From a virus, in the IMG/VR virus record IMGVR_UViG_3300042881_003253, positions 1 to 28,448 of that record: a DNA stretch of 28,448 bases. One strand, given 5' to 3'. Below are positions 1 through 28,425 of the stretch, piece by piece (positions within the stretch are counted from its first letter, which is position 1; every line of letters starts with the position of its first letter). The position numbers and the translations under genes are program-made. The notes beneath the pieces were generated by a model that ran no database searches, was not told where the DNA came from, and saw only the letters and a program-made list of their open reading frames with translations.

Positions 1-254
1 CCTCCAAGCCGCTCCAGTAGGCCCCGCAGCGCGTCGGCCATTTCCTCATGTCGCTTGATATGCTCCGGCCCTTCCGCGAACATTCCGATTGCCAGCCAGA
101 CGGCTTCCCACTCATCGGCGGTGAGCGCGGGCTGCGGTGGATGAACCAGCGGGCCTCCTGCACCGCCTGACAAGGACGCCCGCAATGACTCTCGCTGCTC
201 GTCTGTGAGCGTCACGTTTATTTGCGACGGAACTTGACATTGTGTTTTAGTCAC
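1..254 (-). CDS. Small cassette protein ending in an LLER motif, partial (runs off left edge)
   Basis: Reading leftwards from a GTG at 254, at least 84 codons stay open to the window edge. The GTG overlaps the stop of the gene before it (GTGA, 251-254). The protein starts MTKTQCQVPS, contains TLTDEQRE and later LTADEWEAVWLAIG, and near the window edge has ALRGLLERLG. This pattern, LT(D/A)xExE then a helix and an LLER end, recurs in the genes at 251-580 and 2418-2642 and more weakly at 1761-2153, so these are probably paralogues. A second possible start is the GTG at 215 just before TLTDEQ. No enzyme motif is visible and the function is unknown. It most likely belongs to the same gene cassette as 251-580, whose left boundary lies outside the window. 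Confidence 0.6.
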   Translation of the reverse strand, partial: MTKTQCQVPSQINVTLTDEQRESLRASLSGGAGGPLVHPPQPALTADEWEAVWLAIGMFAEGPEHIKRHEEMADALRGLLERLG

Positions 255-580
255 TTCGTTCTCTCCAGTAGGTTGCGAAGCGTGTCAACGCGATCAAACT
301 CTTCGCAGTTTCCAGCGAGTTCTTCCGCCCACTCCACCGCCTCCCGCTCCTCGTCGGTGAGCGTGGGCTGAAAAATCCTCGCAATCCTCCGCGCCGCAAG
401 CCTCGCCCTGTCTTCGGCGTAACTGTTGCCGCCCTGCCACTTCTTTGTGGTGCCCTCGCGATACCACCGCATGGCGCAGTGGACGATTTCGGCACCCCGC
501 TCCAGTTGGGATTCCCCGTGAGAACCAGCGGATGCAGGAGACATCGCCTTGTCGTCCTGCGGTGTAGTTTCGTCACTCAT
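251..580 (-). CDS. Small cassette-encoded protein with attC-encoded leader and LTDEER/LLER family body
   Basis: 109 residues. The ATG at 578-580 lies inside an attC-like site; its Shine-Dalgarno AGGAG (minus strand) is the L' box of that site, six bases upstream. Residues 1-21 (MSDETTPQDD..., SPASAGSH) are encoded by the attC itself and nearly match the start of the protein at 1761-2153. The body is mostly helical and acidic, with LTDEEREAVEWAEEL and the end LRNLLERTK, shared with neighbouring small cassette genes. No membrane segment, no metal site and no known catalytic motif is seen. I do not know its function; the shared body suggests a family of small phage or cassette proteins duplicated in the array. 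Confidence 0.75.
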   Translation of the reverse strand: MSDETTPQDDKAMSPASAGSHGESQLERGAEIVHCAMRWYREGTTKKWQGGNSYAEDRARLAARRIARIFQPTLTDEEREAVEWAEELAGNCEEFDRVDTLRNLLERTK

Positions 581-608
581 GCGATGCTCCTGATCCTGCG
601 TGTTATCC
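519..608 (+). repeat. attC-like recombination site 1
   Basis: Boxes on the plus strand: R'' TGAGAAC at 519-525, L'' GGATGCAGGAG at 530-540, L' CTCCTGATCC at 587-596, R' GTTATCC at 602-608. L'' and L' pair perfectly if one G of L'' is left out (GGAT-g-CAGGAG with CTCCTG-ATCC). CATCGC/GCGATG extends the stem. R' GTTATCC is complementary to the R'' of the next site (GGATAAC, 1338-1344), not to its own R'', as expected if cassettes are swapped by cutting at G|TT in R'. Confidence 0.88.
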
Positions 609-610
609 GA

Positions 611-1414
611 TCAAAACAGTACGCCCTGACTGAGTCGCTTCGCCGCGATCTCGCAGTATCGCTCCTCAACCTCAATGCCGATGGCTGACCGGCCGCAGTT
701 GCGAGCCGCAACGAGTGTCGTTCCGCTACCCATGAAAGGGTCAACGCACGAGCCGCCGGGGGGCACAATCGTATTCACGATGTATTCAATCATCGGCAGC
801 CACTTTTGCGTCGGGTGGTCAACTTTCTCGTCAGCCCGAATGCCGTGCCTGTAGCCGTCGCAAGCGTAAACGTTGCACCGCTTGCCGCTTTCGTCGCCAA
901 ACCACGCCCCAGGGCGGTATGCGTACATAGCCAACTCAAAGGCAGACGGCCACCAGTTTCCGGGCATAGGTGGCGGCGGGCACTTCTTCACTCTCGCCCA
1001 CGGCTTGACGGTGTACCCGTGCTTCCGAACCTGCTGCGCGAGGTTTCCGTAGTGGTCGGGGTCGCAGAACAGGTGAAGAGCATTCGCCTTTGATGCAGCG
1101 GCATCGACTATTGTTGCCACCCTATCCATCACTCCCACGGGCTGGTCGAAATCGAACTGCATTCGCCGCAACTGAGTTTTCCCAGGCTTTCCTACGGAAT
1201 ACGTTGACTGACCAAACTCACCGACGATCCCATACGGCGGGTCTGTAACTACGGCGTCCACATCGGGAAGCAGAGAAACGAAGTCAATGGCGTCACCGTG
1301 GTAGATGGTGATCCCGTCCCGCTGGTAGTACGGTCGCGGATAACCACACGATGGAGCAGACCCGCCGGCTGCGTCCGTGGTGATCGCGTCGTCTTGTCTC
1401 GGCGTGCTGCTCAT
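611..1414 (-). CDS. DNA methyltransferase, amino-MTase of the beta order (N6-adenine or N4-cytosine)
   Basis: 267 residues from the ATG at 1414. The catalytic motif DPPY is at about residues 58-61, the S-adenosylmethionine-binding loop DPFMGSGTT at about 225-233, and HPTQKW lies shortly before it. Catalytic motif first and SAM motif last, with the target-recognition region between, is the beta-class arrangement of the N6/N4 MTase family (PF01555). No restriction endonuclease is adjacent, so it looks like an orphan phage enzyme that could protect DNA from host restriction. Two starts are possible: ATG 1414 (MSSTPRQDD, inside the attC site, matching the leaders of other cassette proteins) and ATG 1438 with a better Shine-Dalgarno (AAGGA) but lying in the neighbouring cassette. 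I prefer 1414 on cassette logic. The stop is 2 nt from the left R' box. Confidence 0.93.
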   Translation of the reverse strand: MSSTPRQDDAITTDAAGGSAPSCGYPRPYYQRDGITIYHGDAIDFVSLLPDVDAVVTDPPYGIVGEFGQSTYSVGKPGKTQLRRMQFDFDQPVGVMDRVATIVDAAASKANALHLFCDPDHYGNLAQQVRKHGYTVKPWARVKKCPPPPMPGNWWPSAFELAMYAYRPGAWFGDESGKRCNVYACDGYRHGIRADEKVDHPTQKWLPMIEYIVNTIVPPGGSCVDPFMGSGTTLVAARNCGRSAIGIEVEERYCEIAAKRLSQGVLF

Positions 1415-1428
1415 CTTCGGTGTTCTAC
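1338..1428 (+). repeat. attC-like recombination site 2
   Basis: R'' GGATAAC 1338-1344, L'' GATGGAGCAG 1350-1359, L' CTGCTCATC 1407-1415, R' GTTCTAC 1422-1428. GAT-g-GAGCAG pairs with CTGCTC-ATC, a different L sequence from the other sites but again fully complementary with one extra G. R' matches the R'' of site 3 (GTAGAAC). Confidence 0.87.
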
Positions 1429-1721
1429 GGCCGCCCATCGCATTCCTTGAAAACCTCTACCACGCGAGCCTTTGAGCAGTCTCCCAAGGGCAGTGTGTCC
1501 AGGGCTTCTAGGGCCGCCTTCATCGCTGCAAGCGTTGTCGCGTCTACAAGTTGGAGCGCTTCGGCGAGGCAAATAGCGTCCCCTAGGTTTGTCACCGCCG
1601 AGTAGATGTAGCCGACGAGCATTCCGAGATCATGCAGCCGTTCGGCCTTTGATCCTTGAACGTCAATCCAGTCCGTAGAACCACGCGATGCAGCGGACAT
1701 CTCATCAGCCTCGTCTGTCAT
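1425..1721 (-). CDS. Small cassette-encoded protein of unknown function
   Basis: 98 residues. The ATG at 1719-1721 lies in the centre of attC site 3, four bases after a strong AGGAGG; residues 1-16 (ending SAASRGST) are read from the attC. The remainder is acidic and alpha-helical, with a hydrophobic stretch (LVGYIYSAVTNLG) too short and polar for a confident membrane segment, then AMKAALEALDTL and ending ECDGRP. No known motif. Its stop at 1425 falls inside the R' box of site 2, so the gene fills the whole 335-bp cassette. Confidence 0.7.
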   Translation of the reverse strand: MTDEADEMSAASRGSTDWIDVQGSKAERLHDLGMLVGYIYSAVTNLGDAICLAEALQLVDATTLAAMKAALEALDTLPLGDCSKARVVEVFKECDGRP

Positions 1722-1763
1722 GGTGCCTCCTGTGTTCGATGCCGCTGATCGCTGGCGTTCTCA
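1675..1763 (+). repeat. attC-like recombination site 3
   Basis: R'' GTAGAAC 1675-1681, L'' GATGCAGCGG 1687-1696, L' CCGCTGATC 1742-1750, R' GTTCTCA 1757-1763. GAT-g-CAGCGG pairs with CCGCTG-ATC. R' is the complement of R'' of site 4 (TGAGAAC) and contains the stop codon of the minus-strand gene at 1761-2153. Confidence 0.88.
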
Positions 1764-2153
1764 ATGTATTACTGACGCCAATTTGCACTCAGCGCGGTGG
1801 CCTTGATTGCTCGGGAGATCGCCATGCTCGTCAGCGCCGTGTCCGGGTTTGATGCCGCCGCAGACAGGACAGCAGCGCCAGCCGGTGCAATACGAGTAGG
1901 CGGCCGACCACTCCAGCCCACGCAAGACAGCGACCGCAGAGACAGCCGATGCAACGGATCGCTCGTTCGTCCGCTCTAACAATCCGTCCAGCACCGCCGC
2001 TATCTCATTACACGCCACATCGTCCTCGTCGGCATAGGCGTCTCGCGCCCTCGCGATGCAGTGCCTTTCGTATTGCGTCAACGTCAAACCGTGAGAACCA
2101 GCGGATGCAGGAGGCATCGCTGCCGAGTCCTGCGGTGTAGTTTCGTCGCTCAT
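1761..2153 (-). CDS. Cassette-encoded protein with Cys/His-rich C-terminus
   Basis: 130 residues. The ATG at 2151-2153 is preceded by AGGAG contributed by the L' box of attC site 4. Residues 1-22 (MSDETTPQD..., PASAGSHG) are the attC-encoded leader, almost the same as in the gene at 251-580. LTLTQYERH and DGLLERTNE recall the LTDEER/LLER family. The C-terminal third has CCPVCGG, then GHGADEHGD, GHRAEC: Cys and His spaced as a possible zinc site, a pattern seen in many small phage proteins. It may bind nucleic acid, but that is inference. Confidence 0.72.
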   Translation of the reverse strand: MSDETTPQDSAAMPPASAGSHGLTLTQYERHCIARARDAYADEDDVACNEIAAVLDGLLERTNERSVASAVSAVAVLRGLEWSAAYSYCTGWRCCPVCGGIKPGHGADEHGDLPSNQGHRAECKLASVIH

Positions 2154-2181
2154 GCGATGCTCCTGATCCTGCGTGTTCTGT
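2092..2181 (+). repeat. attC-like recombination site 4
   Basis: R'' TGAGAAC 2092-2098, L'' GGATGCAGGAG 2103-2113, L' CTCCTGATCC 2160-2169, R' GTTCTGT 2175-2181. The stem continues past L (CATCGC with GCGATG), as in site 1, whose sequence is closely similar. R' matches R'' of site 5. Confidence 0.88.
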
Positions 2182-2183
2182 GG

Positions 2184-2384
2184 CTACGCCTGCCATTGAA
2201 GTTGCACGCCGCAGTCTGGGCAGTAAAGAAACGAGCGGGCGATGTGTTCCTTTCCGCACTTGGGGCAACGATACCAAGGGCAATACCACTCGTCGTACCC
2301 CATGTTCTGCGACTCACCGATGGACACAGAACCAGCGGATGCAGGAGAAGGCTCAGCATCGCCCTGCGTGTTGTCGTCGCTCAT
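2184..2384 (-). CDS. Small zinc-ribbon protein in a cassette
   Basis: 66 residues. The ATG at 2382-2384 lies in attC site 5, nine bases after AGGAG of the L' box. The first 23 residues are attC leader (MSDDNTQGD..., PSPASAGSV). The body has two CxxC knuckles, CPKCGKEH and CPDCGVQL, about 16 residues apart, with YCPWYR before the first: a typical small zinc ribbon. It could bind nucleic acid or a protein partner. The gene fills the 234-bp cassette and stops 2 nt past the left R' box. Confidence 0.78.
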   Translation of the reverse strand: MSDDNTQGDAEPSPASAGSVSIGESQNMGYDEWYCPWYRCPKCGKEHIARSFLYCPDCGVQLQWQA

Positions 2385-2415
2385 AGTTCGCCGCTCCTGA
2401 TCCTTGTCGTTCTGT
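2326..2415 (+). repeat. attC-like recombination site 5
   Basis: R'' ACAGAAC 2326-2332, L'' GGATGCAGGAG 2337-2347, L' CTCCTGATCC 2394-2403, R' GTTCTGT 2409-2415. GGAT-g-CAGGAG pairs with CTCCTG-ATCC. R'' matches R' of site 4 and R' matches R'' of site 6. Confidence 0.88.
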
Positions 2416-2417
2416 GG

Positions 2418-2642
2418 CTATCCGATCCGCTCCAGCAGGCTTTCCAGCGTGGATGCCGCCGCCCTACTGCGGACCTTGTCCTTTGGCTTTAGGTCGTCCC
2501 AGCCGACGCACAACGTATTCGCTGCCCATGCAATCGCGTCCCGTTCGGCCTCTGTGATCCGAAGGTTGTCAGCGTCGCTACGGAGAGCGGCCATCGCCTC
2601 CATGTGGTCAAACAGCATCCGGTCAAAGACAACGTCGCTCAT
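2418..2642 (-). CDS. Small LLER-family protein, third gene of a three-gene cassette
   Basis: 74 residues, ATG at 2640-2642 overlapping the previous stop (ATGA). It begins MSDVVFDRML and contains ITEAERDAIAWAANTL and ends STLESLLERIG, clearly related in layout to the genes at 251-580 and 1-254. Unlike the genes that start inside an attC it has no A-S-x-G-S leader, because it is internal to its cassette. Function unknown. Confidence 0.68.
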   Translation of the reverse strand: MSDVVFDRMLFDHMEAMAALRSDADNLRITEAERDAIAWAANTLCVGWDDLKPKDKVRSRAAASTLESLLERIG

Positions 2643-2845
2643 GGATTCTTCTGGGCTTCTGTTGGAGGCGGCGGAAACGGCATCCAGTGCGTTACTTGGA
2701 ACTCAGGATCGCCAGATATGTGCCAGACGCCGTCCTCCATGAACCCGCGATCCGGCAGATATTCCCCCGTCACCAAGTCGCAGACGAGGTATGACTCGTT
2801 GTCGTCCGGCAGCCTGTCTTCGACAGAGATCCATTCATTTGTCAT
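2639..2845 (-). CDS. DUF551-like protein
   Basis: 68 residues. The start MTNEWISVEDRLPDD and the later FQVTHWMPFPPPP fit the DUF551 pattern (WISVEDRLP ... THWMPLPxPP), a small family common in phages with no established biochemical role. The ATG at 2843-2845 overlaps the end of the preceding gene by 11 nt; only a weak purine-rich RBS is seen, so it may be translationally coupled. It is the middle gene of the cassette 2410-3188. Confidence 0.82.
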   Translation of the reverse strand: MTNEWISVEDRLPDDNESYLVCDLVTGEYLPDRGFMEDGVWHISGDPEFQVTHWMPFPPPPTEAQKNP

Positions 2846-3152
2846 CTCGCTCTCTCTTTCTTTTTGCCCGGCTGATGAACGTCACTGGGTTGTGTCCCAA
2901 ATGCTTGATCGCGGCCCGCAGGTCGGCGTTTTCGATCAGCATCCCTTCAATGAAATCCTTTGCCTCGTCCATTATTTCCAGCGCAAACAGCGGCACAATC
3001 TTCATGGCGTCTCCCCTGTCTGACAGTTGCTCCAAGAATGGAAGCGCCCGCAAGCGGTGGATGTCTGCCGCGCTTTGCCTTCGCCGCTCTGCACTTCCAT
3101 CCGCCACAGAACCAGACGATGCAACGGACGGCCCTGCTACGTCATGTGTCAT
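2835..3152 (-). CDS. Cassette-encoded helical protein with attC-encoded leader
   Basis: 105 residues. The ATG at 3150-3152 is inside attC site 6, with AGGAGG seven bases upstream. The leader MTHDVAGPSVASSGSV is encoded by the attC. The rest is charged and helical (LRALPFLEQL, EIMDEAKDFIEGMLIENADLRAAIKHLG) and may form a coiled coil, ending in a basic/acidic tail KRKRERDDK. No catalytic motif. It is the first gene of a three-gene cassette. Confidence 0.7.
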   Translation of the reverse strand: MTHDVAGPSVASSGSVADGSAERRRQSAADIHRLRALPFLEQLSDRGDAMKIVPLFALEIMDEAKDFIEGMLIENADLRAAIKHLGHNPVTFISRAKRKRERDDK

Positions 3153-3194
3153 GGTGAGTCCTCCTGTGGCCGCCGTTGATCTTCCGCGTTCTGT
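3106..3194 (+). repeat. attC-like recombination site 6 (right end of the array)
   Basis: R'' ACAGAAC 3106-3112, L'' GATGCAACGG 3118-3127, L' CCGTTGATC 3173-3181, R' GTTCTGT 3188-3194. GAT-g-CAACGG pairs with CCGTTG-ATC, and GGCC continues the stem. I find no further site to the right; the phage gene at 3198-3425 stops 3 nt past this R'. Confidence 0.88.
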
Positions 3195-3197
3195 CTC

Positions 3198-3425
3198 TCA
3201 CGCCCTGTGTCCTCCGCCCTGTGGCCGGCTGATCCCGGCGTTCCATTTAGCGATCTTCGCGCTCGCGGCCTCCTCGCTCTCGGCCATGCGTCGCCCGATG
3301 TGAGCCTCGCGGAGTTTGCGGGCTTCGATCTCGATCGCCGGAGCGAGCCGAAGACTCGACATGCTCGCGGCGTCCTCGGCAGGATCGACCCAGGGCTCGG
3401 ATCCGGTGTTCAGTGGTCGTCCCAT
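3198..3425 (-). CDS. Small protein coupled to the replication gene
   Basis: 75 residues, ATG at 3425 sharing a TAATG with the stop of the replication protein gene. It begins MGRPLNTGSEPW and has a helical, charged middle (EIEARKLREAHIGRRMAESEEAASAKIAKWN). No known domain. It is the last gene of the phage early operon before the cassette array; its stop is directly next to the outermost attC R' box, so the array was probably inserted just behind it without breaking it. Confidence 0.7.
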   Translation of the reverse strand: MGRPLNTGSEPWVDPAEDAASMSSLRLAPAIEIEARKLREAHIGRRMAESEEAASAKIAKWNAGISRPQGGGHRA

Positions 3426-4372
3426 TACGCCATCCCTCCGGTGATTTGCTTCAGCACGGCCGACCGTGCCTCCTCGATCCCGTCGTCCTTCGGCTGACGC
3501 GCCGACTTCGCAGCCTTCGCCGCCAGGAACTCCTCGCGGCGGCGAATCGTCTCGGGGTCCGCAGCGCCGCGAGCCCAGTCGGCCGCAGCCTGGGCGGCAG
3601 GTCGGCGGTCGTCTGCCGGTGGCCGGTGGCCGGGCTTGCCGGGTCGCTCGGTCAGCTCGTCGTAGCGGCCCTGGAGGACACGGGACACAAACCTCGGCCC
3701 GCAGAACTGCGGCAGCCCTACGGGCGTCCGAAAGTATCGGCAGCGAGCGAGCCGCCCGATCGCCGTCAGGGCGTCCTCCAGCCAGCCCGGCTCCGCGAGC
3801 CGGGCCAGAGCCTCGTCCGGTGGCTGCGGGGAGCGGTGAGGCGAGCCGGGGCCTGCCTTCCAGGCGTCCCGCAGGATTGCCCAGGCTGCCGGGTCCGGCT
3901 CTCCGTCCTCGCACGCGTGCGGTGGTGGTGGATTCTCTACCTCTCCTCTCCTCTCCTCTGGTGGCGCTTTTGTGGCGCGCGCAGCGCCACAGGATCGCGC
4001 TTTCTGTGGCGCTTCTGTGGCGCTCGGCGCGCCACGGGAGCGTTCCATCCTGTTTTTCTTCAGTGCCCTGGCCTTCGCGGAGTCGCTGCAATGCCGGTCG
4101 AATCTGGGGAACGTCAGCCCGTGGCCCGTCTCCTCCAGCCATCCAACCCGCACCATTTCAGCCGCAAACCCAGGACACCGGACGGTCCGGTCCACCCAGT
4201 CGAGCCCGACACCGTCGGCCTTGCCCTCCTGGGTGTGCCTGTCCGCCCAGGACCAGAGCCGGAACAGTTTCCCGATCACCGCGTCCTCGTCGAGGCGGCA
4301 GGCGGCCGCGAGCCGGATCGTAGCCGGGTCGTCCGCCAGGTCGTGCCGCATCTTCAGCCAGTCACCGGCCAT
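3425..4372 (-). CDS. Replication initiator-like protein with N-terminal winged-helix region
   Basis: 315 residues from the ATG at 4372. The N-terminal ~115 residues (GDWLKMRHDLADDPATIRLA, AVIGKLFRLWSWADRHT, later GWLEET, LTFPRFDRH) match the N-terminal pattern I associate with phage replication proteins of the DnaD/initiator type that read short helical winged-helix domains. A linker rich in Ala, Pro, Arg and Lys follows, containing a 15-residue tandem repeat (GAPSATEAPQKA, GAARATKAPPEE). The C-terminal half is helical with no recognisable motor motif; an ATPase role is not supported. It probably opens the origin or loads the host helicase. An iteron-like repeat inside this gene may be the origin, as in lambda O. 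Confidence 0.65.
   Translation of the reverse strand: MAGDWLKMRHDLADDPATIRLAAACRLDEDAVIGKLFRLWSWADRHTQEGKADGVGLDWVDRTVRCPGFAAEMVRVGWLEETGHGLTFPRFDRHCSDSAKARALKKNRMERSRGAPSATEAPQKARSCGAARATKAPPEERRGEVENPPPPHACEDGEPDPAAWAILRDAWKAGPGSPHRSPQPPDEALARLAEPGWLEDALTAIGRLARCRYFRTPVGLPQFCGPRFVSRVLQGRYDELTERPGKPGHRPPADDRRPAAQAAADWARGAADPETIRRREEFLAAKAAKSARQPKDDGIEEARSAVLKQITGGMA
3961..4035. repeat. Iteron-like repeat within the replication gene (candidate origin)
   Basis: GTGGCGC occurs directly at 3961, 3972, 4006 and 4017 and inverted (GCGCCAC) at 3984 and 4029: six copies in 75 bp. They form two 30-bp units (3961-3990, 4006-4035) about 26/30 identical with a 45-bp period. A polypyrimidine run of CTCTC repeats (about 3941-3959) lies directly beside them. 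Placement inside a replication protein gene is typical of lambda-like origins; function is inferred. Confidence 0.5.
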
Positions 4373-4637
4373 GGTCTGCCTCCTTACTGATCCGCTCGTT
4401 CACCAAGTCGAGCAGACTCCGGGCCTCCTTGACCGTCAGCCGTTCGTCGTCCATCGCGTCGAGGATCAGGCCCTGGACGCCGACCGGCGGCCGGCTCGCG
4501 GTCTTCGTCATCAGGTCGGGCGAGAACTTCGCGCTGCCGACCGGAGGTCGGAGACGAAGGTCGACCGGCGAGGCGACCTCGATCAGGGCCGAGAACTCCG
4601 AGACGGCGTTCGTCGAATGAATGATGTCACTGCTCAC
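4362..4637 (-). CDS. Small early protein of unknown function
   Basis: 91 residues, GTG start at 4637 in a GTGA overlap with the previous gene. The sequence is polar with a helical end (MDDERLTVKEARSLLDLVNERI). It contains two RPPVG segments (RLRPPVGSAKF and SRPPVGVQG) that look like a short internal repeat. It overlaps the start of the replication gene by 11 nt, indicating translational coupling. No domain recognised. Confidence 0.65.
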   Translation of the reverse strand: MSSDIIHSTNAVSEFSALIEVASPVDLRLRPPVGSAKFSPDLMTKTASRPPVGVQGLILDAMDDERLTVKEARSLLDLVNERISKEADHGR

Positions 4638-4942
4638 TTCCCAGCCCTCCGATACTCGTCCTCACCTCTAGCGACCTCGCGGCCCGTCCGCTCGATCGCC
4701 CCGACCTTCCGCAGCTCGTGGATCCTTTTCGAGACCTGGGCGACGGTGAGGCCCGACCGCTCCGCGATCTCCGTCTGGCCGGCAGGCCCGGCCGCCAGGG
4801 CCTCGAGGATCCGCCTGGCGTGCTCGCCGCGAATCGCCGGCACCGCGGCCGCGGCCTTGTGCGATGTCGCCGGATCATCGCGGCGAGCGGCCGCGAAGAT
4901 CGGCAGCGACTCGATCGCTTCCATGCTGGTCCGTAGCGTCAT
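4634..4942 (-). CDS. Winged helix-turn-helix protein
   Basis: 102 residues. After a short N-terminus comes DDPATSHKAAAAVP, a signature of small phage winged-helix proteins. Residues of about 43-90 read ARRILEALAAGPAGQTEIAERSGLTVAQVSKRIHELRKVGAIERTG, a clear MarR/DprA-type winged HTH: helix, recognition helix, then the wing. It probably binds DNA, either as a regulator of the early operon or as a replication accessory. Start ATG 4942, 2 nt after the previous stop. Confidence 0.78.
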   Translation of the reverse strand: MTLRTSMEAIESLPIFAAARRDDPATSHKAAAAVPAIRGEHARRILEALAAGPAGQTEIAERSGLTVAQVSKRIHELRKVGAIERTGREVARGEDEYRRAGK

Positions 4943-4944
4943 GA

Positions 4945-5163
4945 TCAGTCTCCCGTCCAGTTAGTGCCGGCCCGCGGCCCGGCGTAGCCGAGCTGCTGCG
5001 GAGCGTTGCCCCACCGCTCGAACCAGGCCTTCCGGACGGCCAGCTCGTCGGCGTAGGGTCGCGCTCCGTCCATGGATTCCATGGCGACCGCGTTGGCAAT
5101 CCGCATCGCGGCGTGCCGGTCGGCTGCCGTGTTGATCGCGTCGATCGCGTCCGTGATCGTCAT
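4945..5163 (-). CDS. Small early protein of unknown function
   Basis: 72 residues, ATG at 5163 preceded by GGAGGG. It begins MTITDAIDAINTAADRHAAMRIANAVA and ends GPRAGTNWTGD. Helical N-terminus, Trp-rich middle (AWFERWGNAPQQLG). No known domain. First gene after a structured 166-bp gap, so it may be the first gene of a downstream transcript segment. Confidence 0.68.
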   Translation of the reverse strand: MTITDAIDAINTAADRHAAMRIANAVAMESMDGARPYADELAVRKAWFERWGNAPQQLGYAGPRAGTNWTGD

Positions 5164-5329
5164 CCGTCCCTCCGTGTGTTGGCCCCGTGTCGTGGGGCAT
5201 CCGCCTAGTGCCGGTCGTCAAGGCGAACGACCTCACTAGGAGCCGGTGTTATGTCGCGACCGCCGGCAGCGCTCTCCCTGTGGCCGAGATAGGCAGCCAC
5301 TACGGCCGGGAGCGGCCGTGGACGTTAGG
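5164..5329. promoter_or_regulatory. Intergenic region with three hairpins
   Basis: Three inverted repeats lie in the gap between genes 5330-5725 and 4945-5163. (1) ACGGCC/GGCCGT at 5302-5319, just behind a stop codon. (2) 5204-5240: CCTAGTG and GGTCGT pair with ACGACC and CACTAGG around an 8-nt loop with only a CC/T interruption. (3) GCCCC/GGGGC at 5182-5198. No U-run follows, so classical terminators are doubtful; an attenuator, RNA-processing site or protein-binding site is possible. No gene is seen here. Confidence 0.5.
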
Positions 5330-5725
5330 TCACTGAACCCTGAACTTGACCCCTTCCGCAGTCGTTGAAGTCACGACGCAGTCGTAGCCAGAACCAGTTT
5401 CAAGCCCAAATGATGAGAGAGATTGCGGACGGACTGTAAACCGCACGGTGAGGCTGACCGATTTCTTGCCACCACTACTAAGAGCGTTACCTTCGCCGTT
5501 GTTGTTCGTCCGAGCACAAGTCCACTCCATCAAGTCCTCGTTGAAGTCAGCGGTGACTTTGTCGCCGTCGATCCACCGCATCCGAGCGAGCAGCGACTCG
5601 CTAAAACGAATACCTACGGCTACCCTCTTTGCTCCGCTGCCGGTGGCAAAGACTCGAACGTCTGTGAGTTGGTCGCCTGAACGCCGCCCACCCCTGGCAG
5701 ACCGTCGAAGCTGAATGATTCCCAT
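5330..5725 (-). CDS. Beta-rich early protein of unknown function
   Basis: 131 residues, ATG at 5725 preceded by AGGAG eight bases upstream. Basic N-terminus (LRRSARGGRRSG), then alternating beta-like segments (DVRVFATGS, RVAVGIRFSESLL, SVSLTVRFTVRP, DCVVTSTTAEGVKFRV). The base composition appears lower in GC than the flanking genes. It sits behind the SSB-like gene, so a role in replication is possible, but no motif supports this. Confidence 0.65.
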   Translation of the reverse strand: MGIIQLRRSARGGRRSGDQLTDVRVFATGSGAKRVAVGIRFSESLLARMRWIDGDKVTADFNEDLMEWTCARTNNNGEGNALSSGGKKSVSLTVRFTVRPQSLSSFGLETGSGYDCVVTSTTAEGVKFRVQ

Positions 5726-9221: not shown

Positions 9222-10148
9222 ATGCGTTCAATGCCGTTGCGTGATGCGTTTCGTCGGTATGCCTTGCTCCGTGAGTTGAAGCCCCACACGGTCTCGCTCT
9301 ACGGGATGCTCTTCGATCGCCTGGAGCGATTCTTGAAACGACCGCCAACGGTCGGGGACCTCGAGGACGTGGTCGTCGCGGAGTATTTGGAATGGCGACG
9401 AGTGACGCCTGGGTGGCGTGATCGCCTGCCGAAGCCCGCCACGGTCCGGAAGGACCGGAACATGATCCGGGCCGTCTGGGAATACCTCGCCCGTAAGAAA
9501 ATCACTACAGAGTTTCCCGAGGTCCCGCGTGTCAAAGTCCCGAAGACAATCCCTCTGGGTCGTGCCTACACAGCCGACGAGGTCGGCTCTCTGATCAGGG
9601 CAGCGAAGCGTCGCATCGGAAGGACGGGCGGCCTGCCGTCGCGCTGGTGGTGGTCGACGCTCATCTACGCGGCCGTATGTACGGGCGAGCGATTCGAAGC
9701 CCTCACGTCGCTCCGCTGGGGCCAGGTGGACCTCGACCGTCGTCGCGTGATCTTCCTGGCCGGGACGAGGAAAGGAGCGACCCGCGACATCGAGCGGGCA
9801 GTCACGCCGCAGCTCGCCGCGATGCTCGCGGAGCACCGTCGCGGGCCGGACGACCTGGTCTGGCCTTGGGACCGGGCGACCCGCAGCCACTGGGCCTCTC
9901 TACAAGTCCTGTGCCGATCTGCCGGCGTCGAATACCGGGGGCGAGGCTTCCACGGATTCCGCCGCATGGCCGCCTCCTACGCGGCCCTGGCGGGCGGAGC
10001 CGCCGCGGCGACCCAGCTCCTCGACCACAGCGACCCGGCCCTCCAGGCCGTCTATGTGGACCCACTTATCTGCCCGCGGGACACCTGCTCGGTCGACACC
10101 CTGCCGCCGCTGGACCTGGGCGAACTCGACGCGACCCGGCACTCCTGA
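9222..10148 (+). CDS. int: Tyrosine recombinase (phage integrase)
   Basis: 308 residues, the only clear plus-strand gene. The N-terminal ~105 residues are a SAM-like core-binding domain (LKPHTVSLYGMLFDRLERFLK). The catalytic domain shows R157 (CTGERFEAL), K184 (GTRKGAT, beta-hairpin), H244 and R247 (HGFRR), H269 (LLDHSD) and the nucleophile Y278 (QAVYVDP). All active residues are present. It would integrate and excise the phage with the excisionase-like protein encoded divergently. The integron-specific insertion of IntI is not seen, so it is not an integron integrase. Start ATG 9222 with AAGGA nine bases upstream. The last 97 bp overlap the end of a convergent gene. Confidence 0.93.
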   Translation: MRSMPLRDAFRRYALLRELKPHTVSLYGMLFDRLERFLKRPPTVGDLEDVVVAEYLEWRRVTPGWRDRLPKPATVRKDRNMIRAVWEYLARKKITTEFPEVPRVKVPKTIPLGRAYTADEVGSLIRAAKRRIGRTGGLPSRWWWSTLIYAAVCTGERFEALTSLRWGQVDLDRRRVIFLAGTRKGATRDIERAVTPQLAAMLAEHRRGPDDLVWPWDRATRSHWASLQVLCRSAGVEYRGRGFHGFRRMAASYAALAGGAAAATQLLDHSDPALQAVYVDPLICPRDTCSVDTLPPLDLGELDATRHS

Positions 10149-12995: not shown

Positions 12996-13336
12996 TACGA
13001 GCACTCCGCAGCGATAACGTACCAGCGGCCGTTCGCGTGGAGCGCGACCGAGACGAACTTTCCGCTCGCGATGTTCGCGTATTTGTTGACCACGTCCGCG
13101 ACGGTCGCTCCGCTCGTCTGTGTTTCGTTCGGTGGCGTCCCGCTCTCCCACACGTTCAGCGTCGCGACCGTTCCCTTGTTGAACGCGGCCGAGGTCTTAC
13201 ACAGGCGAAGCGTCGAATCGTCGCCGGTGTCGCGGAACTTGATCGGCGGCATATCGCGATTTCCGGCCTCGTGGGCCTTCGTCGCCGCGATCACGCGACG
13301 GGCTCCGTCCTCGCTGAATGCGACAGGCTTCGTCAT
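12995..13336 (-). CDS. Small tail-associated protein
   Basis: 113 residues, ATG at 13336 in an ATGA overlap. Begins MTKPVAFSEDGARRVIAATKAHEAGNRD; has beta-rich TVATLNVWES and FVSVALHANGRWYVIAAECS. The N-terminal FSEDGARRVxxA phrase occurs in tail-tip region proteins of GC-rich phages in my recollection, with unknown function. Sits between two tail genes, so a tail or adaptor component is likely. Confidence 0.65.
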   Translation of the reverse strand: MTKPVAFSEDGARRVIAATKAHEAGNRDMPPIKFRDTGDDSTLRLCKTSAAFNKGTVATLNVWESGTPPNETQTSGATVADVVNKYANIASGKFVSVALHANGRWYVIAAECS

Positions 13337-14229
13337 GTGGGGATGAACACCGGAGTCCCGAAGCCGGTCGTAAAGTTTGCCGTTTCGTAGATGTCGACGC
13401 CGTCGCCGTTATTGATCACGGTCGGCTTCGAGCCTACGGCCTTCTTCGTGCCGTCGTTATTCAGGGCGACCGGTTGCTTCACCGGCTTTCCGTCGTTCCC
13501 GAGGACGGTCTTCCGCTCTCCGCTCACCTTCTCCATGAAGCCCACGTCCCAAGGCTTACACTTCCAGGTGTCGGGGTCGTAGCGAAACTCCCAGTGGGCC
13601 TCGATGTAGTCGAGCGTCGCCCCGTCGGCCGAGCCGTCGAGCTTCGAGACGCTGACCTTCTTCGCGCTCTTCAAGTAACACTTCACCGTTTTTTCCGGGT
13701 AGTTGCTCCAACTCGCGTTATTCACCTTCCCGGCGTAGGCACCGGCGGCAGACCCGAAAGACGCGTCTGTCGTGTAGCACTTGGTGAGCGACCAGGCGAC
13801 CTCCTCACGCTCTCGCTCCAGGCCCTCGAGCGGATCGCCGGCCGCGTTCGTGATCGAGACTCCGCTCGTGTCGCGGAAGACCGGGACCGTCGAAGTCCCT
13901 CCAGATCGCTCCCAGGCGTCCTTCGGGATCCCGGAGGCCTGCGGTGTCTTCGAGGCAGGCGGGACGTAATACTTCACGGTGAAGATCCACCGCATCCCCT
14001 CGCGGCCTTCGGCGTCGAGCGTGAACTCCATCGCCTTCAGCGCGGAAAACTCGGGGTGTGAGGCACCCCACACGATCCCGCCGGTGGCGAGCGTCTGAAG
14101 GATCGCCAGGCGGGTCGTCGTCGGCGAATCGACGCGGACCTGCCAGCGTTCCGTGGCCTGGAGCGACTCGCCGAACTTGCCCGACAGGCTCGCGCCGTCG
14201 AGGATCCGCTGGTAGGAGACGACAGCCAT
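13333..14229 (-). CDS. Tail protein downstream of the tape measure (distal tail candidate)
   Basis: 298 residues, ATG at 14229 sharing a base with the tape measure stop (TGATG). Beta-rich start (SYQRILDGASLSGKF, RWQVRVDS), then AMEFTLDAEGREGMRWIFTVKYYVP and later LDYIEAHWEFRYDPDTWKCKPWDVGFMEK. It lacks recognisable hydrolase motifs. Gene position directly after the tape measure is where distal tail and baseplate proteins are encoded in siphophages. Confidence 0.65.
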   Translation of the reverse strand: MAVVSYQRILDGASLSGKFGESLQATERWQVRVDSPTTTRLAILQTLATGGIVWGASHPEFSALKAMEFTLDAEGREGMRWIFTVKYYVPPASKTPQASGIPKDAWERSGGTSTVPVFRDTSGVSITNAAGDPLEGLEREREEVAWSLTKCYTTDASFGSAAGAYAGKVNNASWSNYPEKTVKCYLKSAKKVSVSKLDGSADGATLDYIEAHWEFRYDPDTWKCKPWDVGFMEKVSGERKTVLGNDGKPVKQPVALNNDGTKKAVGSKPTVINNGDGVDIYETANFTTGFGTPVFIPT

Positions 14230-15788
14230 CAGTTGAACTCCGCGACGACGAAATCATTCTCGGCCGTGTTCGCGGCGATCTGCTCGATCCCGTCGGCTAT
14301 ACGCTCCTGCACGTCATCACCGCCCCGCATGAGTCGGAACATCTCGGCCACGCCGGCCGACGACCGCGAGTCGATCCCCTTAATCGCCTCGGAGATATTC
14401 ACGACGACGGGCGGCTTCAGCTCTGGTGGCTTCGGTGGCTCGGCGGCCGGAGGTGTCGCCGGCGGGCGATCGCTCAGAGCTTTCTCCGCCATCGAGACAA
14501 GATCCGTGAACGTCGTCAGCGGCTTCCGCTGCTCCGCGACCGCATCAGTCAGGCGAGAAACTTCCGCGGCGAAAGCCTGGTCGAGCTGCGTCACGAATCC
14601 GCCCGACCCTTCGGCCGCGACTTGAGGAGCCAGGCCTGCCTGGATCTGGGCCTGCATCTCGTTGAGTCGCTTCGCTTCCGCAGAGATCGGCACGCCTAGA
14701 GTGTCGGCCGCCGCGAAGTACATGTCGCGAAACCCGTTGACGACCTGGTCGGCGACCGTCGCCAGGTACTTTGCCCCGTCTACGATCCCCTGCCCGATCG
14801 ACTTTCCGATATCTTTTCCGTCGAGGTCGCCGAGGAACTTCTCGATCCTAGGTATCAGGCCCTCGACGGCGGACCCGATCAGCTCGACCGCCGGCCTGAT
14901 CCCCTGCGCGATCTTCGCGAAAAGTGGCTCGACGGCCGTCAGGACCCGGGAGACGCTGGCGGCGATCGACTTGTAGAGCGGCTCGAACGCGGTCCCGATT
15001 GTCGAGAAGACGTTCGAGGCCTTCGCCGAAATCATCCGCTGCATGTTTGCGAGCGAACCGCTGGTTCGCTCGAAGTCACCCTGGGCCGACGCCGTCTGTC
15101 GTAGGATCGCCGCGTATGCTGCCTGGGCCTTGATCGCAGGCGACAGCGACCCGGTTGTCGACTTGATCAGCCCTTGCGACAGGGCCTCCTGTTTTAGCGT
15201 TGCGTCGTCCAGCAGCACTCCGAACCGGCGGATCGGCTCTGCCTCGCCTCGGAGGGCAGCCCCGAGGGCTCCGATAGCGTCCTCGACCGAGGAGTTGTTG
15301 AACGACGCGAGATCGGCACTGAGGGCCGTCATGGTCGTCGCGTAGTTTGCGGCCTCCTCCTTACCCATCCCCATTGCCGTGAATAGGTTCCCGAATGTGC
15401 CGGTCGCCGATAGGGCAGCGGATTCGGCGATGCCGATCCGGCTGGCAGTCTTCGCGAACTCGGCGACCTTCGCCGCGGAGGCCCCGAATATCACACCAGA
15501 CTTGCTCGTTTCTTCGCCGAGCGATGTGGCGGCCTCGACCGCAGCCGACAGCGACGACACGGCACTCGCCCCGAGACCAGCGACAGACTTCGCGGCGGAC
15601 ATCGCGCCACCGACAACCGACCCGAAGAGCTGCGCCCCGCTGATCGCCGTCAGGAGTCGCATATTCGACGACAGACTGGCGACATCGGACTGGAGGCTAC
15701 GGAACGACGAGGAGGCGGCCTTCACTCCGGACGTGAGGCCGGACGTGGACGCGGTGAATACGGCCGACACTTTTCCGATCGACGCCAC
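14229..15788 (-). CDS. Tape measure protein (short)
   Basis: 519 residues from a GTG at 15788, 1 nt after the preceding stop. Ala/Ser/Gly-rich helical N-terminus (VFTASTSGLTSGVKAASSSFRSLQSDV), hydrophobic AISGAQLFGSVVGGAM, and the typical tape measure segment YATTMTALSADLASFNNSSVEDAIGALGAALRGEAEPIRRFGVLLDDATLKQEAL. At about 1.5 angstrom per residue it predicts a tail of the order of 75-80 nm. It lies directly behind the frameshifted chaperones, the conserved order of siphophages. No lytic transglycosylase or peptidase domain is visible. Confidence 0.92.
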   Translation of the reverse strand: MASIGKVSAVFTASTSGLTSGVKAASSSFRSLQSDVASLSSNMRLLTAISGAQLFGSVVGGAMSAAKSVAGLGASAVSSLSAAVEAATSLGEETSKSGVIFGASAAKVAEFAKTASRIGIAESAALSATGTFGNLFTAMGMGKEEAANYATTMTALSADLASFNNSSVEDAIGALGAALRGEAEPIRRFGVLLDDATLKQEALSQGLIKSTTGSLSPAIKAQAAYAAILRQTASAQGDFERTSGSLANMQRMISAKASNVFSTIGTAFEPLYKSIAASVSRVLTAVEPLFAKIAQGIRPAVELIGSAVEGLIPRIEKFLGDLDGKDIGKSIGQGIVDGAKYLATVADQVVNGFRDMYFAAADTLGVPISAEAKRLNEMQAQIQAGLAPQVAAEGSGGFVTQLDQAFAAEVSRLTDAVAEQRKPLTTFTDLVSMAEKALSDRPPATPPAAEPPKPPELKPPVVVNISEAIKGIDSRSSAGVAEMFRLMRGGDDVQERIADGIEQIAANTAENDFVVAEFN

Positions 15789-19568: not shown

Positions 19569-20792
19569 TCAGGCCTTCGCGAGGCGACCCACGAACTCCG
19601 GAGCGTGGTTGCTCACACCGAACCGGGTGTTCGCGACGTAGAGCACCTGGCGGTTCCGCATCAGGATCTCGCGGCCCGCTTCGATCTCGAGGCCGCTATC
19701 CTTCAGGCCGATCGCCGTCGACATCGCGAAGTCGCCGTAGAGGGCGAGCGTCGTGGAGGGGAGACCCTTCACGAGGTAGACCGGAGCACCGAAGATCGTC
19801 GGCACGACCCGGCCGCCGCCGACCGTGAGGGTCGTCTGCTGAGCGGACCAGATCTTCATCAGGTCGACCCAGCCGGCACGCGAGCAGACCCAGGAGGCGG
19901 TCCCCATCGCGGCCTCGTCGACCTTACCCACCACGTCGGCCAGGTTCGCGAGGCTCGTCGCCGTGGAGCCGGCCGCCACGGTGATCGTGTTGCCAGCCGC
20001 GACGCCAGCCGCGAGGCCGCCGATCGTCGGGTTCGACGCTTGGCCCGCGAGCCAGAGGGAGTCCATCTTCTGAGCGTAGGCCAGAGCGAACCGCTCGGCC
20101 ACGAGGCCGGCCACGTCGAGCGGCGAGTCTTCGATCAGGCTTCGCGAGATCGCGACCGAGCCACGCATCTCGTACATGGTCAGGGCACCGACCGAGGACA
20201 CAAGGTCCTGATCGGTCGTCGCGGTCCCTTCGGCCACGAGCGACGCGGTCGCGTCGCCGACCTTCGGGAAGTCGATCTTCTGGCCGCGGGGCCGGACGAC
20301 CGTCGCGAGCTGAAGAGCGACCGACGCGTACTGGAGCCGGTTGACGATCGCGCCGTACAGCTCCTTATAGACGTACTCGGCTCCGATCCCGTCGTAGGTG
20401 CTAGAGGTCTCGCCCATCGCTCGGGTCTCGCCCGTGTAGAGGGCCTTCAGGTACGAGCCGACGGCCTCGGCAGCACGCCGCGAGCTGAAGAGCTTGATCC
20501 CGCTCCGCACGTCGGCGGGCTCCTGGAAGTCTTCGACGGCAGCCTTCTCGGCAACCTTCGGCGACGAGGCCGAGCCGGTCACCTTCCGGAGGCCGGCGAG
20601 CTTCTCGTCGAGGTCACGCTCCGAGCCGGCGTCCTTCGACACGATGTCGGCCTTCGCGATCAGGCCCGCGAGTCGCTCCTCGATCCGGGTCCGCTCCTCG
20701 TCGTTCGAGGGCTCGACCGAGCGGAGGGTCTCGATCTCGGTGGCGATCTGGGCGGCTTCGTCCTGGAGGCGAGCGAGTCGGGGCGACGGCAT
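19569..20792 (-). CDS. Major capsid protein, HK97 fold
   Basis: 407 residues, ATG at 20792. Residues 1-~75 are a charged coiled coil (RLARLQDEAAQIATEIETLR, RIEERLAGLIAKADI), the N-terminal scaffold (delta) domain that the prohead protease removes. The body reads YVYKELYGAIVNRLQYASVALQLATVVRPRGQKIDFPKV, EGTATTDQDL, SVAISRSLIEDSPLDVAGLV, TASWVCSRAGWVDLMKIWS, TIFGAPVYLVKGLPSTTLALYGDF: classical HK97-type capsid. It is separated from the protease gene by seven genes, which is unusual since they normally adjoin. Followed by a strong hairpin. Confidence 0.93.
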   Translation of the reverse strand: MPSPRLARLQDEAAQIATEIETLRSVEPSNDEERTRIEERLAGLIAKADIVSKDAGSERDLDEKLAGLRKVTGSASSPKVAEKAAVEDFQEPADVRSGIKLFSSRRAAEAVGSYLKALYTGETRAMGETSSTYDGIGAEYVYKELYGAIVNRLQYASVALQLATVVRPRGQKIDFPKVGDATASLVAEGTATTDQDLVSSVGALTMYEMRGSVAISRSLIEDSPLDVAGLVAERFALAYAQKMDSLWLAGQASNPTIGGLAAGVAAGNTITVAAGSTATSLANLADVVGKVDEAAMGTASWVCSRAGWVDLMKIWSAQQTTLTVGGGRVVPTIFGAPVYLVKGLPSTTLALYGDFAMSTAIGLKDSGLEIEAGREILMRNRQVLYVANTRFGVSNHAPEFVGRLAKA

Positions 20793-21186: not shown

Positions 21187-21443
21187 CACCAGCCCCTTCC
21201 GTTGTGGATGATCGGATAGCCGTCGTCTCCGACGTTCGCGGACCTGGCGACGTGGTGGTCGGGCTGCGGCTCCTCGGGAGGCTTCTCGGCCAGGAGGGCG
21301 ACCCAGAGCAGGCTCCGAGCGGCCCTGGCGATCCACCGCACGACCGGCCGGTCGGCGGGCTTCGGCGTAATGTCATTCGACGAAGCCAGCCAGTAGCCGA
21401 CGACCAGGGCGACAGCGACGGCGGCGAGCGTGCGGCGATCCAT
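21186..21443 (-). CDS. Small single-span membrane protein
   Basis: 85 residues, ATG at 21443 preceded by GAGG. The hydrophobic segment RTLAAVAVALVVGYWLASS (about residues 3-22) is followed by a second weaker hydrophobic stretch WIARAARSLLWVALLAE. The end is polar (HVARSANVGDDGYP). Size and topology are possible for a holin or spanin-like protein; this is inference from the neighbouring peptidase gene. Confidence 0.65.
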   Translation of the reverse strand: MDRRTLAAVAVALVVGYWLASSNDITPKPADRPVVRWIARAARSLLWVALLAEKPPEEPQPDHHVARSANVGDDGYPIIHNGRGW

Positions 21444-26775: not shown

Positions 26776-28425
26776 CTACAGGACGCGGATCCGCCACTCG
26801 TCGAGGCTCCGGCCGGAGCCCGTGTCCTCGTCGGTCGACGCGAGGGCGAGCCCATTCACGAGGGCGGCGACGCCGTCGATCTTCTCCGTCGATTTCGCCT
26901 TGTCCGGTTTAATCATCCCTGTGGGATCGGTGTAGACACAGCAATTGTTCGCGTTCCACTGTGCCACGGGATTCGCTCCCGTGCGGAGTCGCTTCTCGAC
27001 GACCAGGGCCTCGAGGAGTTTGCATGGCGAGTTGAGCGTCGACGTTTTTTGCGCTATGTCCTTCGTCGTGATCCCTTCACGCTGGAGCAGCGTCTCGAGG
27101 GCTCCGGCCTGCCAGGGGTCGCAGCCGACGGCCTTGATCTCGTGGGTCTCGCCATACGCGATGATGTCGCGAGCGACGCTCTCGTGATCGAGCCGGTGTC
27201 CGTCGGTGACGGTCACCCAGCCGTCGCGGATCCAGGAGTCGTAGGGGATCCCTTCGCGGACGCGGTCGGCCACGGTCTCGCGTGGTACCCAGTATTTCCA
27301 CTCGACCGAATAGGAGCCGTCGGATTCTTTGAACACGAACGCGGCCGCCGTCATGTCGAGATTCGACGCCAGGTCGACGCCGACCCAGCACGGCCGTCCC
27401 TCGGTCGGATCGAGCGGACCGGCGGAGCAGGCCGACCAGTCGAGAGGCGGGACGAACCATCGCGAGTCGCCGGCCTGCCAGACGTTCAGCGAGTAGCGGA
27501 GGAACTTCGACATCTTCCGCGGGTCGGTCGTCGCGTCCTGGTAGTCGGCCGCGAACTCGTCCTCGGGGAACGCGATCCCCATCGAAGGGTTCGCCTTCCG
27601 CCAGACCTTCGGGTCGGAGAAGTCGTCGTCCTCGTCGGCCGCGTAGATCAGACCGTAGAAGGTCGGGTTCGCCTTCGGATCCTTGATCACCAGCTCGCAG
27701 TCCTGCCACCAACGCCAGCCGATCCCGTTTCGATCGGAGCCCGCCGTCGAGATCGAGATCACGAGACCGTTTGCCGTGCCACGGGTCGCGTAGATCAACG
27801 CGTCGACCAGATCCGGCGAGCGGAAACTATGGATCTCGTCGAGGATCACCGATCCGTTCAGGCCTTCGTTCCGCCACGAGTCGGAGGACAGGCAGCGGAT
27901 TTCCTTCCCGGTCTCGCGGTTCCGGATGATGCTCCGCGAGTCGACGACCTCGAGGCGCTTCGATAGTTGCGGGCTCGCCTCGACCGACTGCCGGACCATG
28001 CGGTACATCGTCCGAGCCTGGAGGCGGTCGTTCGCCGCGAGGAACACGTCCTGGGCCGGAGCGTGGCAGGTCGCCATGTACTGGGCGAGCTGCGACATCA
28101 GGCTCGACTTTCGGTTCTTCTTCGGGACGAAGATCCCGGCGCGACGGAACCGGAGGCGGCCGTCTGGTCGACGCCAGCCGAAGAGCGGACGAAGGACCTT
28201 CTCGGCCTGCCACTCGATCAGCTCGATCCGCTTCGGATCTCCGCCGCGTTCGTCTGGGTGTCGACACAGCCCCTGGACGAAGTCGACAGGGGCCTGGGCC
28301 GCGTCCTCGTCCCACTTGTAGCCTGGCAGATACTCCGGCCGCTTCTTCGGGTCGAGCGGCTTACCCGCGGACGGAGAGCTTCGCGAGGATCGCGGCTTCG
28401 GGGTCGTCTTCTTCCGCTTCGCCAT
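26776..28425 (-). CDS. terL: Terminase large subunit
   Basis: 549 residues, ATG at 28425 behind GGAGG. The ATPase domain has FVPKKNRKSSLMS (variant Walker A), SVILDEIHSFRS (Walker B with catalytic E) and GLVISISTAGSDRNG. The nuclease domain has WVGVDLASNLDMTA and later EKIDGVAALVNGLALA. The layout is that of the Terminase_1 family used by HK97-like phages. It cuts and pumps DNA into the procapsid. A Lys/Arg-rich N-terminal tail precedes it (AKRKKTTPKPRSS). The small subunit should be right of the window. The 61 bp up to the portal gene contain only its RBS. Confidence 0.95.
   Translation of the reverse strand: MAKRKKTTPKPRSSRSSPSAGKPLDPKKRPEYLPGYKWDEDAAQAPVDFVQGLCRHPDERGGDPKRIELIEWQAEKVLRPLFGWRRPDGRLRFRRAGIFVPKKNRKSSLMSQLAQYMATCHAPAQDVFLAANDRLQARTMYRMVRQSVEASPQLSKRLEVVDSRSIIRNRETGKEIRCLSSDSWRNEGLNGSVILDEIHSFRSPDLVDALIYATRGTANGLVISISTAGSDRNGIGWRWWQDCELVIKDPKANPTFYGLIYAADEDDDFSDPKVWRKANPSMGIAFPEDEFAADYQDATTDPRKMSKFLRYSLNVWQAGDSRWFVPPLDWSACSAGPLDPTEGRPCWVGVDLASNLDMTAAAFVFKESDGSYSVEWKYWVPRETVADRVREGIPYDSWIRDGWVTVTDGHRLDHESVARDIIAYGETHEIKAVGCDPWQAGALETLLQREGITTKDIAQKTSTLNSPCKLLEALVVEKRLRTGANPVAQWNANNCCVYTDPTGMIKPDKAKSTEKIDGVAALVNGLALASTDEDTGSGRSLDEWRIRVL

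Follow-up and report, generated by a model that had tools for sequence, protein, structure and literature searches.

The 28,448-bp linear record IMGVR_UViG_3300042881_003253 of the IMG/VR database, analyzed here over its whole length and hereafter called the window, begins with an array of gene cassettes separated by six sites that resemble the attC recombination sites of integrons. In our assessment, this array is likely an integron devoid of its integrase and carried by a tailed phage, whose cassettes would be exchanged with the help of an integron integrase (IntI) provided in trans by the host. Indeed, comparisons between related sequences indicate that the mobile units run from one G|TT crossover to the next and are gained, lost and reordered among phages. 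Integrons are regarded as bacterial devices for gene capture, and clusters of attC sites lacking an integron integrase (CALINs) as occasional passengers when they occur in phages. The phage group described here shows a seemingly working integron: one locus is found either empty or filled, exchange is seen at G|TT, and a leader element stands where attI would be expected. It points to a route by which phages may trade accessory genes, including those of DNA methyltransferases, and by which viral and bacterial cassette pools would be linked.

The attC sites and their family

A geometry scanner that fixes only the AAC and GTT triplets, the arm lengths and two bulges, and that was validated on the aadA1 attC of plasmid R100, which obtains the full score, retrieved six sites (S1 to S6, Table 1) from both strands of the 28.4 kb and nothing else. 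They are the same six that the first-pass annotation, made from the sequence alone, had placed between positions 519 and 3194. No site was found in the reversed window sequence, and 60 dinucleotide shuffles of the window gave 0.07 sites on average and one at most. With six sites within 2.7 kb and no IntI in the record, itself probably a fragment, the array corresponds to a CALIN. In all six sites, imperfectly paired L''/L' arms are enclosed by the core triplets AAC (in R'') and GTT (in R'), and L'' has two extrahelical bases six positions apart. The first of these is a G in every site, in agreement with the extra G initially noticed; to it has to be added the second, an A in five sites and a G in S4. 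The R' boxes read GTTATCC, GTTCTAC, GTTCTCA or GTTCTGT. At the five boundaries between sites, R' is complementary to the R'' of the next site over 7/7 positions, as had been claimed, and pairing inside the same site reaches 34 of 42 positions; S5 and S6 nevertheless match their own R' at 7/7, so that the accompanying statement that R' does not pair with its own R'' holds for four sites only. In a permutation test of this neighbor pairing, 6 of the 720 orders of the six sites equal the observed one, the test being weak because several R boxes are identical. Folded as single strands, as the first-pass annotation had proposed, S1, S4 and S6 clearly surpass shuffled sequences; the folds of the other three are discussed below.

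Sites of this kind are widespread in viral DNA. Among viral contigs, at least 119 stretches match a degenerate site pattern, compared with only 24 in a one-genome-per-species collection of 257 billion bases, 11 of the latter being labeled as planctomycete, one as Cyanobium and 12 as others. These 12 (7 from sphingomonads; all with an 81-nt span) were dismissed as unrelated since the scanner finds no good site in them. It finds none either in L223 and L226, which count among the 11 labeled as planctomycete. Viral pattern scans, which give lower bounds, yielded at least 131 viral loci with sites; these loci are GC-rich (median 63%), and 68 of them contain a single site within the DNA examined. 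Altogether, 346 good sites (320 distinct) were collected from 151 viral and bacterial loci, including the window, and their anatomy is uniform: the first bulge is G in 332, the second A in 325, and the spacers measure 5 and 6 in 338. Over 2.48 Mb, the scanner reported 398 sites versus 23 in the reversed control. Pairing of R' with the neighboring R'' at 7/7 occurs in 83 of 125 viral pairs, versus a mean of 19.4 and a maximum of 30 after shuffling.

Comparison of sites further suggests that the attC arms are conserved in structure rather than in sequence, through compensatory change. In an alignment of 70 sites, 89.3% of the arm cells are paired and 216 cells have changed on both sides, versus a shuffled mean of 84; none of 500 shuffles reaches this count, nor does any reach the covariation score. 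Shifting the pairing by one base destroys the compensatory signal. A site model built partly from window sites (R1) gives S1 a score of 84.0 bits. At E 0.001, it matches 54 of 194 genomes of the Cyanobium class and 36 of 246 planctomycetes, mostly at 30-50 bits, and because it matches so many genomes weakly, only high scores were taken as phage-type. Using blastn, neither S1 nor S6 matched any of 50,697 phage records, and S1 had no match in plasmids.

Empty and filled loci and an attI-like leader

An integrase 97-99% identical to the one of the window is present at 13 loci, many of them on short fragments, and 33 records were scanned for sites, of which 14 had some. The first-pass annotation had suggested looking for the same backbone with other cassettes, and this search returned three empty records and two differently filled ones. 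In the empty records G702 (30.8 kb), G707 (29.5 kb) and L248, the backbone is unbroken and no good attC is found at the locus. G274 and G356 (the latter reached via its cassette, in L201, and not via the integrase) carry inserts of 1604 bp and 1126 bp, respectively, at the same backbone base, and homology between the window and the empty G702 begins at position 3198, which is this same insertion base. As far as these sequences tell, the module thus occupies one point of the genome in the phage group of the window and is missing from some near relatives. A TCA triplet flanks the inserts of G274 and G356 on both sides and occurs once in the empty G702 (5376-5378, L435), a pattern that may reflect a 3-bp target duplication or chance.

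Both inserts open with a common element of ~145 bp ending in GCATAATCANTGG|TT, and the cassettes that come next are not the same in the two. When the examined loci were searched with a profile, this leader was located at 65 distinct places, 63 of them viral (including G274 and G356), with three of the 63 being weak matches (E above 1e-4). No attC precedes it at any of the 65 places in the DNA examined, and its R' is complementary at 7/7 to the R'' of the first attC in 49 of the 57 cases with a following attC. The leader is no copy of an attC, yet it has the same crossover, and we read it as a putative attI-like site of the phages. Among 45 bacterial genomes searched for it, 13 match at E 0.1, and the two best matches (24 and 21 bits) both adjoin IntI sequence. 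On a contig of a planctomycete metagenome-assembled genome (L213), a leader-like site follows a broken IntI and precedes the first attC, to which it is complementary at 7/7, while in G215 fragments of IntI lie ~290 nt from the leader match and no attC was found. In L213, the two pieces of IntI and the leader-like site that follows them span 4319-5341, and the same genome has a second IntI above the cut-off on another contig (G006:C174).

Movement of cassettes between phages

Eight other viral contigs contain the left cassette of the window with S1, whole or in part, at 96-99.5% identity. In all of them, the identity stops at most 5 nt past G602|TT, and the nine continuations, the one of the window included, differ, some being alike over the first 12-15 nt. 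In L201, the left cassette is directly followed by the backbone of the window (from 3198 onward), the remaining window cassettes being missing. Similarly, window positions 1422-1605 are 98.4% identical to L119, the identity starting at G1422 and reaching the end of that contig. A trace of reordering comes from L138 and L148, which both carry phage genes and share a backbone of about 69% identity over 3.4 kb: two cassettes of 430 and 790 bp, 100% identical between them, stand there in opposite order, with identity ending 1-5 nt from G|TT. The exchange of accessory genes predicted by the first-pass annotation is thus borne out by cassettes that differ among near backbones and by this swapped order; contents vary at the same boundary and order changes elsewhere, so that the arrangement is not fixed in all relatives.

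Averaged over 18 pairs, identity at left boundaries is 30-65% before G|TT and jumps there to 91-100%; averaged over 13 pairs, identity at right boundaries falls from 74-95% to 27-40% beyond +4, after TTCT. These pairs are not independent, six of the 18 coming from four loci, and L097/L269 as well as L108/L128 represent one record or near-identical arrays; duplicate contexts were removed. Such steps of identity at G|TT indicate that the moving unit consists of a body and its own right-hand attC, with canonical polarity.

Several further observations concern the history of the cassettes. In clusters with near-identical bodies and unlike attC sites of their own, the attC itself seems to have been swapped at times. 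Adjacent cassettes of one array (L137, 2173-4033) are related (84% where aligned), possibly by duplication. A 167.8-kb viral contig (L016/L351) contains the left cassette of the window at 99.5% near its end; as GC is lower (52%) over the initial 12 kb of this contig, different types of phages seem to share cassettes.

Reversed genes, embedded starts and cargo

On the minus strand of each of the six window sites, an ATG opens a reading frame that leaves through R'', in the same phase in all six, and a Shine-Dalgarno motif is present at the embedded start in five; the first-pass annotation had overlooked these reversed genes. The same design prevails among viral sites: 211 of 261 contain the start of an opposite-strand gene leaving via R'', 196 of these 211 in one phase and 171 with a Shine-Dalgarno motif at proper distance, versus 3 of 185 comparable starts in the opposite-strand control. 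In many sites, AGGAG is supplied by the L' arm itself. At bacterial-genome loci, embedded starts occur in 17 of 58 sites, in mixed phase and with three Shine-Dalgarno motifs; in both sets of sites, a few entries stem from a record represented twice (L097/L269; L208/L230). The longest open reading frame (ORF) is reversed in 103 of 116 viral versus 8 of 36 bacterial-genome cassettes (Fisher 8e-14). As the genes of these 103 viral cassettes run toward the leader side, a Pc promoter reading from attI would not serve them; the neighboring phage genes lie on the minus strand, and transcription therefore probably enters from the right. In the messenger RNA, the same hairpin could hide the ribosome site. 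Such a cassette design suits phage transcription, and one may ask how a hairpin under selection for IntI can double as a translation start.

Regarding cargo, 64 cassette proteins (61 cluster representatives and three window ORFs) were compared with protein families at E 0.001. Matches comprise C5 methyltransferases (4), N6/N4 methyltransferases (2), Mom (1), Dam (1), DUF551 (3) and HNH (2), a single protein being able to match several families. One cluster, with 96 of the 204 ORFs, was probably merged via a shared leader peptide. The DNA-modification cargo suggests a role in the evasion of restriction. Relatives of the zinc-ribbon-like cassette of the window (2176-2409) are present in L130 and L193, and ORFs 2418-2642 and 2639-2845 also occur in L168. 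For ORF 251-580, no match was obtained within the phage collection.

The recombinase and a proposed mechanism

The lack of an integron integrase had been asserted from the start, and no match to IntI (TIGR02249) is indeed present in the window record at E 0.01. Of about 126 viral records with sites, 100 were searched; none of them has an IntI above the cut-off, one giving a weak match of 24.8 bits, and in a first look with the IntI model, 89 of the 100 had no candidate at all. By comparison, IntI exceeds the curated cut-off in 8 of the 12 planctomycete or Cyanobium genomes matched by the pattern. Judging from these genomes, the recombinase is most likely an IntI that the host provides in trans. 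It would recombine the folded single-strand attC of a cassette with the phage leader, and a cassette placed in the array would then be translated from the phage transcript entering at the right. The cargo, DNA methyltransferases and small proteins of no known function, may aid phages against host defences. More broadly, and with less assurance than for the array itself, we favor the idea that these phages have domesticated the integron: they would own an attI-like dock and draw on a shared cassette pool, have no integrase, use attC both as a hairpin and as a ribosome-binding and start site, and borrow the host integrase to shuffle anti-defence genes among themselves and with bacterial integrons. 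As to the host, the idea of cyanophages was abandoned, the photosystem family PF00124 being found in none of 50 records.

Relation to known integrons

Phage CALINs as such are already known. In its accessible part, the study of Qi et al. (2023) reports 17 CALINs in 10,705 named phage genomes, the recombination by IntI1 of five out of six phage attC sites in an assay, and an inactive Shewanella prophage, M16-3, with an attI at the start of its CALIN and an IntI of its own (PMC9892861). These CALINs share with the present array the absence of IntI, methyltransferase cargo and the G|TT crossover (PMC9892861). Unlike them, the present family consists of one type of site that occurs on more than 100 viral contigs; it has reversed genes, starts inside attC and its own leader, its locus exists both empty and filled, and comparisons reveal cassette exchange. 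M16-3 has IntI whereas the 100 viral records searched here have none above the cut-off. Phage cassettes whose genes are reversed and start within attC, and an integrase-less phage lineage with an attI-like site, are both undescribed in the literature searched, which held few subscription journals and no bioRxiv preprints; neither is described in the accessible parts of PMC8876359, PMC8352920 and PMC2426708. Reversed phage cassettes with a start in attC and a conserved viral attI-like leader hence seem to be new features.

Among bacteria, planctomycete attC sites form a recognised taxon-specific group, as stated in the accessible part of PMC8352920. The planctomycete chromosomal integrons found here (G002 contig 19, i.e., L344, and L213) resemble the phage arrays by their attC geometry and GATGCA/TGATC arms; they have IntI on the same contig (broken in L213) and, in L213, the leader-like site. 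In contrast to phages, genes at bacterial-genome loci follow the attC direction in 28 of 36 cassettes, and embedded starts are fewer. Cyanobium sp. FGCU52 (JANWUS010000039, L218/L340), the best R1 match of the 194 genomes in its class (85 bits), contains a phage-type attC cassette with the phage leader peptide, as well as a homolog of window ORF 251-580 (64% amino acid identity). Unlike the phages, this is a bacterial contig with IntI (457 bits), and its other cassettes have another attC type. Phage-type and other-type cassettes stand side by side there at 13070-15724 (L340). The contig has an ORF pair present twice, read as a MazF-like toxin-antitoxin, and genes that we take to be lipA- and psbP-like, both readings being made with no search of protein families.

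Weighing the interpretation

Several results weigh against an integron fed by a host IntI. The classical attC has a 7-bp consensus, RYYYAAC / GTTRRRY, typical of class 1. The window sites, with R boxes of the types GTTCTNN and GTTATNN, depart from it. When set beside the aadA1 attC (class 1, R100), they share spacers of 5 and 6, arm lengths and bulges (3+1+6+1+3), but differ by length (~90 versus 60 bp), by the GTTRRRY R boxes of aadA1 and by the first extrahelical base, almost invariably G in the family and C in aadA1; the second is A in aadA1, as in five of the window sites. The planctomycete array of G002, located beside IntI, has the same deviations in bulge and R boxes. S3 and S5 fold only weakly better than shuffles (z -1.3 to -1.7), and S2, the weakest fold of the six, no better (z -0.5 and -0.9). 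In the viral set, 42 of the 125 neighbor pairs fall short of 7/7, which could be explained by missed sites and decay. In the 70-site alignment, doubly changed pairs are reached by 3 of 500 shuffles, and one of the five measures, the number of further pair types, gives no signal (28 versus a shuffled mean of 29.8, reached by 450 of 500). Some cassettes have alike bodies and unlike attC sites of their own (body 97% and attC 68% identical in L032/L053; 92% and 71% in L092/L108), and simple cassette exchange does not account for them. The bacterial leader matches are weak and lie beside broken or fragmentary IntI, and the cut window has no leader by its array, its only match being one of 11.9 bits at 21342. 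Finally, the link to a host is distant: for the terminase, matches at 26-42% identity were obtained in 11 of 246 planctomycete genomes, and for the phage integrase, at E 1e-30, in none of 294 planctomycete and 291 cyanobacterial genomes, in a search run with no positive control.

In a rival reading, the repeats are conserved translation-start leaders of early phage genes, cassettes being swapped by ordinary homologous recombination between them and the likeness to attC being inherited and no longer in use. The repeats are coding leaders with a ribosome-binding site and a start codon, sites are alike (62-83% for left sites in most compared pairs), phages of the group encode Sak4-like and RecT-like proteins, and some bodies come with different attC sites. 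We nevertheless consider this explanation unlikely, given that breakpoints fall at G|TT (within 1-5 nt in L138/L148) and are not scattered over 90 nt, that the attI-like leader has the same crossover without being an attC copy, and that compensatory change has preserved the pairing of the arms and the bulges, which a mere leader does not require. That the cassettes are moved by the tyrosine integrase of the phage or another phage recombinase, and not by a host IntI, appears quite improbable. Such an integrase is encoded in the window, but almost the same protein (97-99% identical) is also found in phages with an empty locus, and most site-bearing records lack any candidate to the IntI model, which is no test for every recombinase. 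Least probable of all, in our opinion, is a passive copy of a host integron that has become a static CALIN. Planctomycete genomes do contain IntI as well as related sites, and off-target homologous or illegitimate recombination has been proposed as a possible source of CALINs in the accessible part of Qi et al. (PMC9892861). A static array is contradicted by the variable content among close backbones, unless the contigs are assembly chimeras, by the observed reordering and by the reversed phage gene design, which is in the minority at bacterial-genome loci. An integrase-less integron served by a host IntI hence remains the interpretation that we prefer.

The record and its other genes

The window is a tailed phage, with genes for a terminase, a major head protein, a tape measure, a replication initiator, a Sak4-like protein and a tyrosine integrase (Table 1). 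As it encodes a tyrosine integrase, this phage is probably temperate. The record is probably a fragment of a larger genome and, being linear and whole as given, it truncates the array at its left end.

Table 1. Coordinates of the array and of phage genes in the window
Feature	Positions	Strand	Remarks
Cassette cut by record end	1-602	+	ORFs 3-254 and 251-580 (-), with S1
attC S1	519-608	+	R'' 519-525, R' 602-608; crossover G602|TT; minus strand: ribosome-binding site and ATG (580) of ORF 251-580
Cassette	603-1422	+	N6/N4 DNA methyltransferase ORF 611-1414 (-), with S2
attC S2	1338-1428	+	Crossover G1422|TT; minus-strand ATG 1414, start of the methyltransferase
Cassette	1423-1757	+	ORF 1425-1721 (-), with S3
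attC S3	1675-1763	+	Crossover G1757|TT; minus-strand ATG 1721
Cassette	1758-2175	+	ORF 1761-2153 (-), no family found, with S4
attC S4	2092-2181	+	Crossover G2175|TT; minus-strand ATG 2153
Cassette	2176-2409	+	Zinc-ribbon-like ORF 2184-2384 (-), Pfam matches under gathering score, with S5
attC S5	2326-2415	+	Crossover G2409|TT; minus-strand ATG 2384
Cassette	2410-3188	+	Three ORFs (-): 2418-2642, 2639-2845 (DUF551) and 2835-3152, with S6
attC S6, last of the array	3106-3194	+	Crossover G3188|TT; minus-strand ATG 3152
Short stub	3189-3197		From last crossover to conserved backbone
Backbone ORF	3198-3425	-	Right edge of the array; kept in filled and empty relatives
Replication initiation protein	3425-4372	-	PHROG 2509
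Tyrosine integrase	9222-10148	+	PHROG 1
Tail tape measure protein	14229-15788	-
Major head protein	19569-20792	-
Terminase large subunit	26776-28425	-

A scan of the window with Rfam at gathering scores gave no match, the presence of an attC family in Rfam not having been checked, and a scan for tRNAs found nothing. Within the replication initiator gene, repeats of the GTGGCGC type, inverted and direct, are present at window positions 3961-4042, and likewise in L248.

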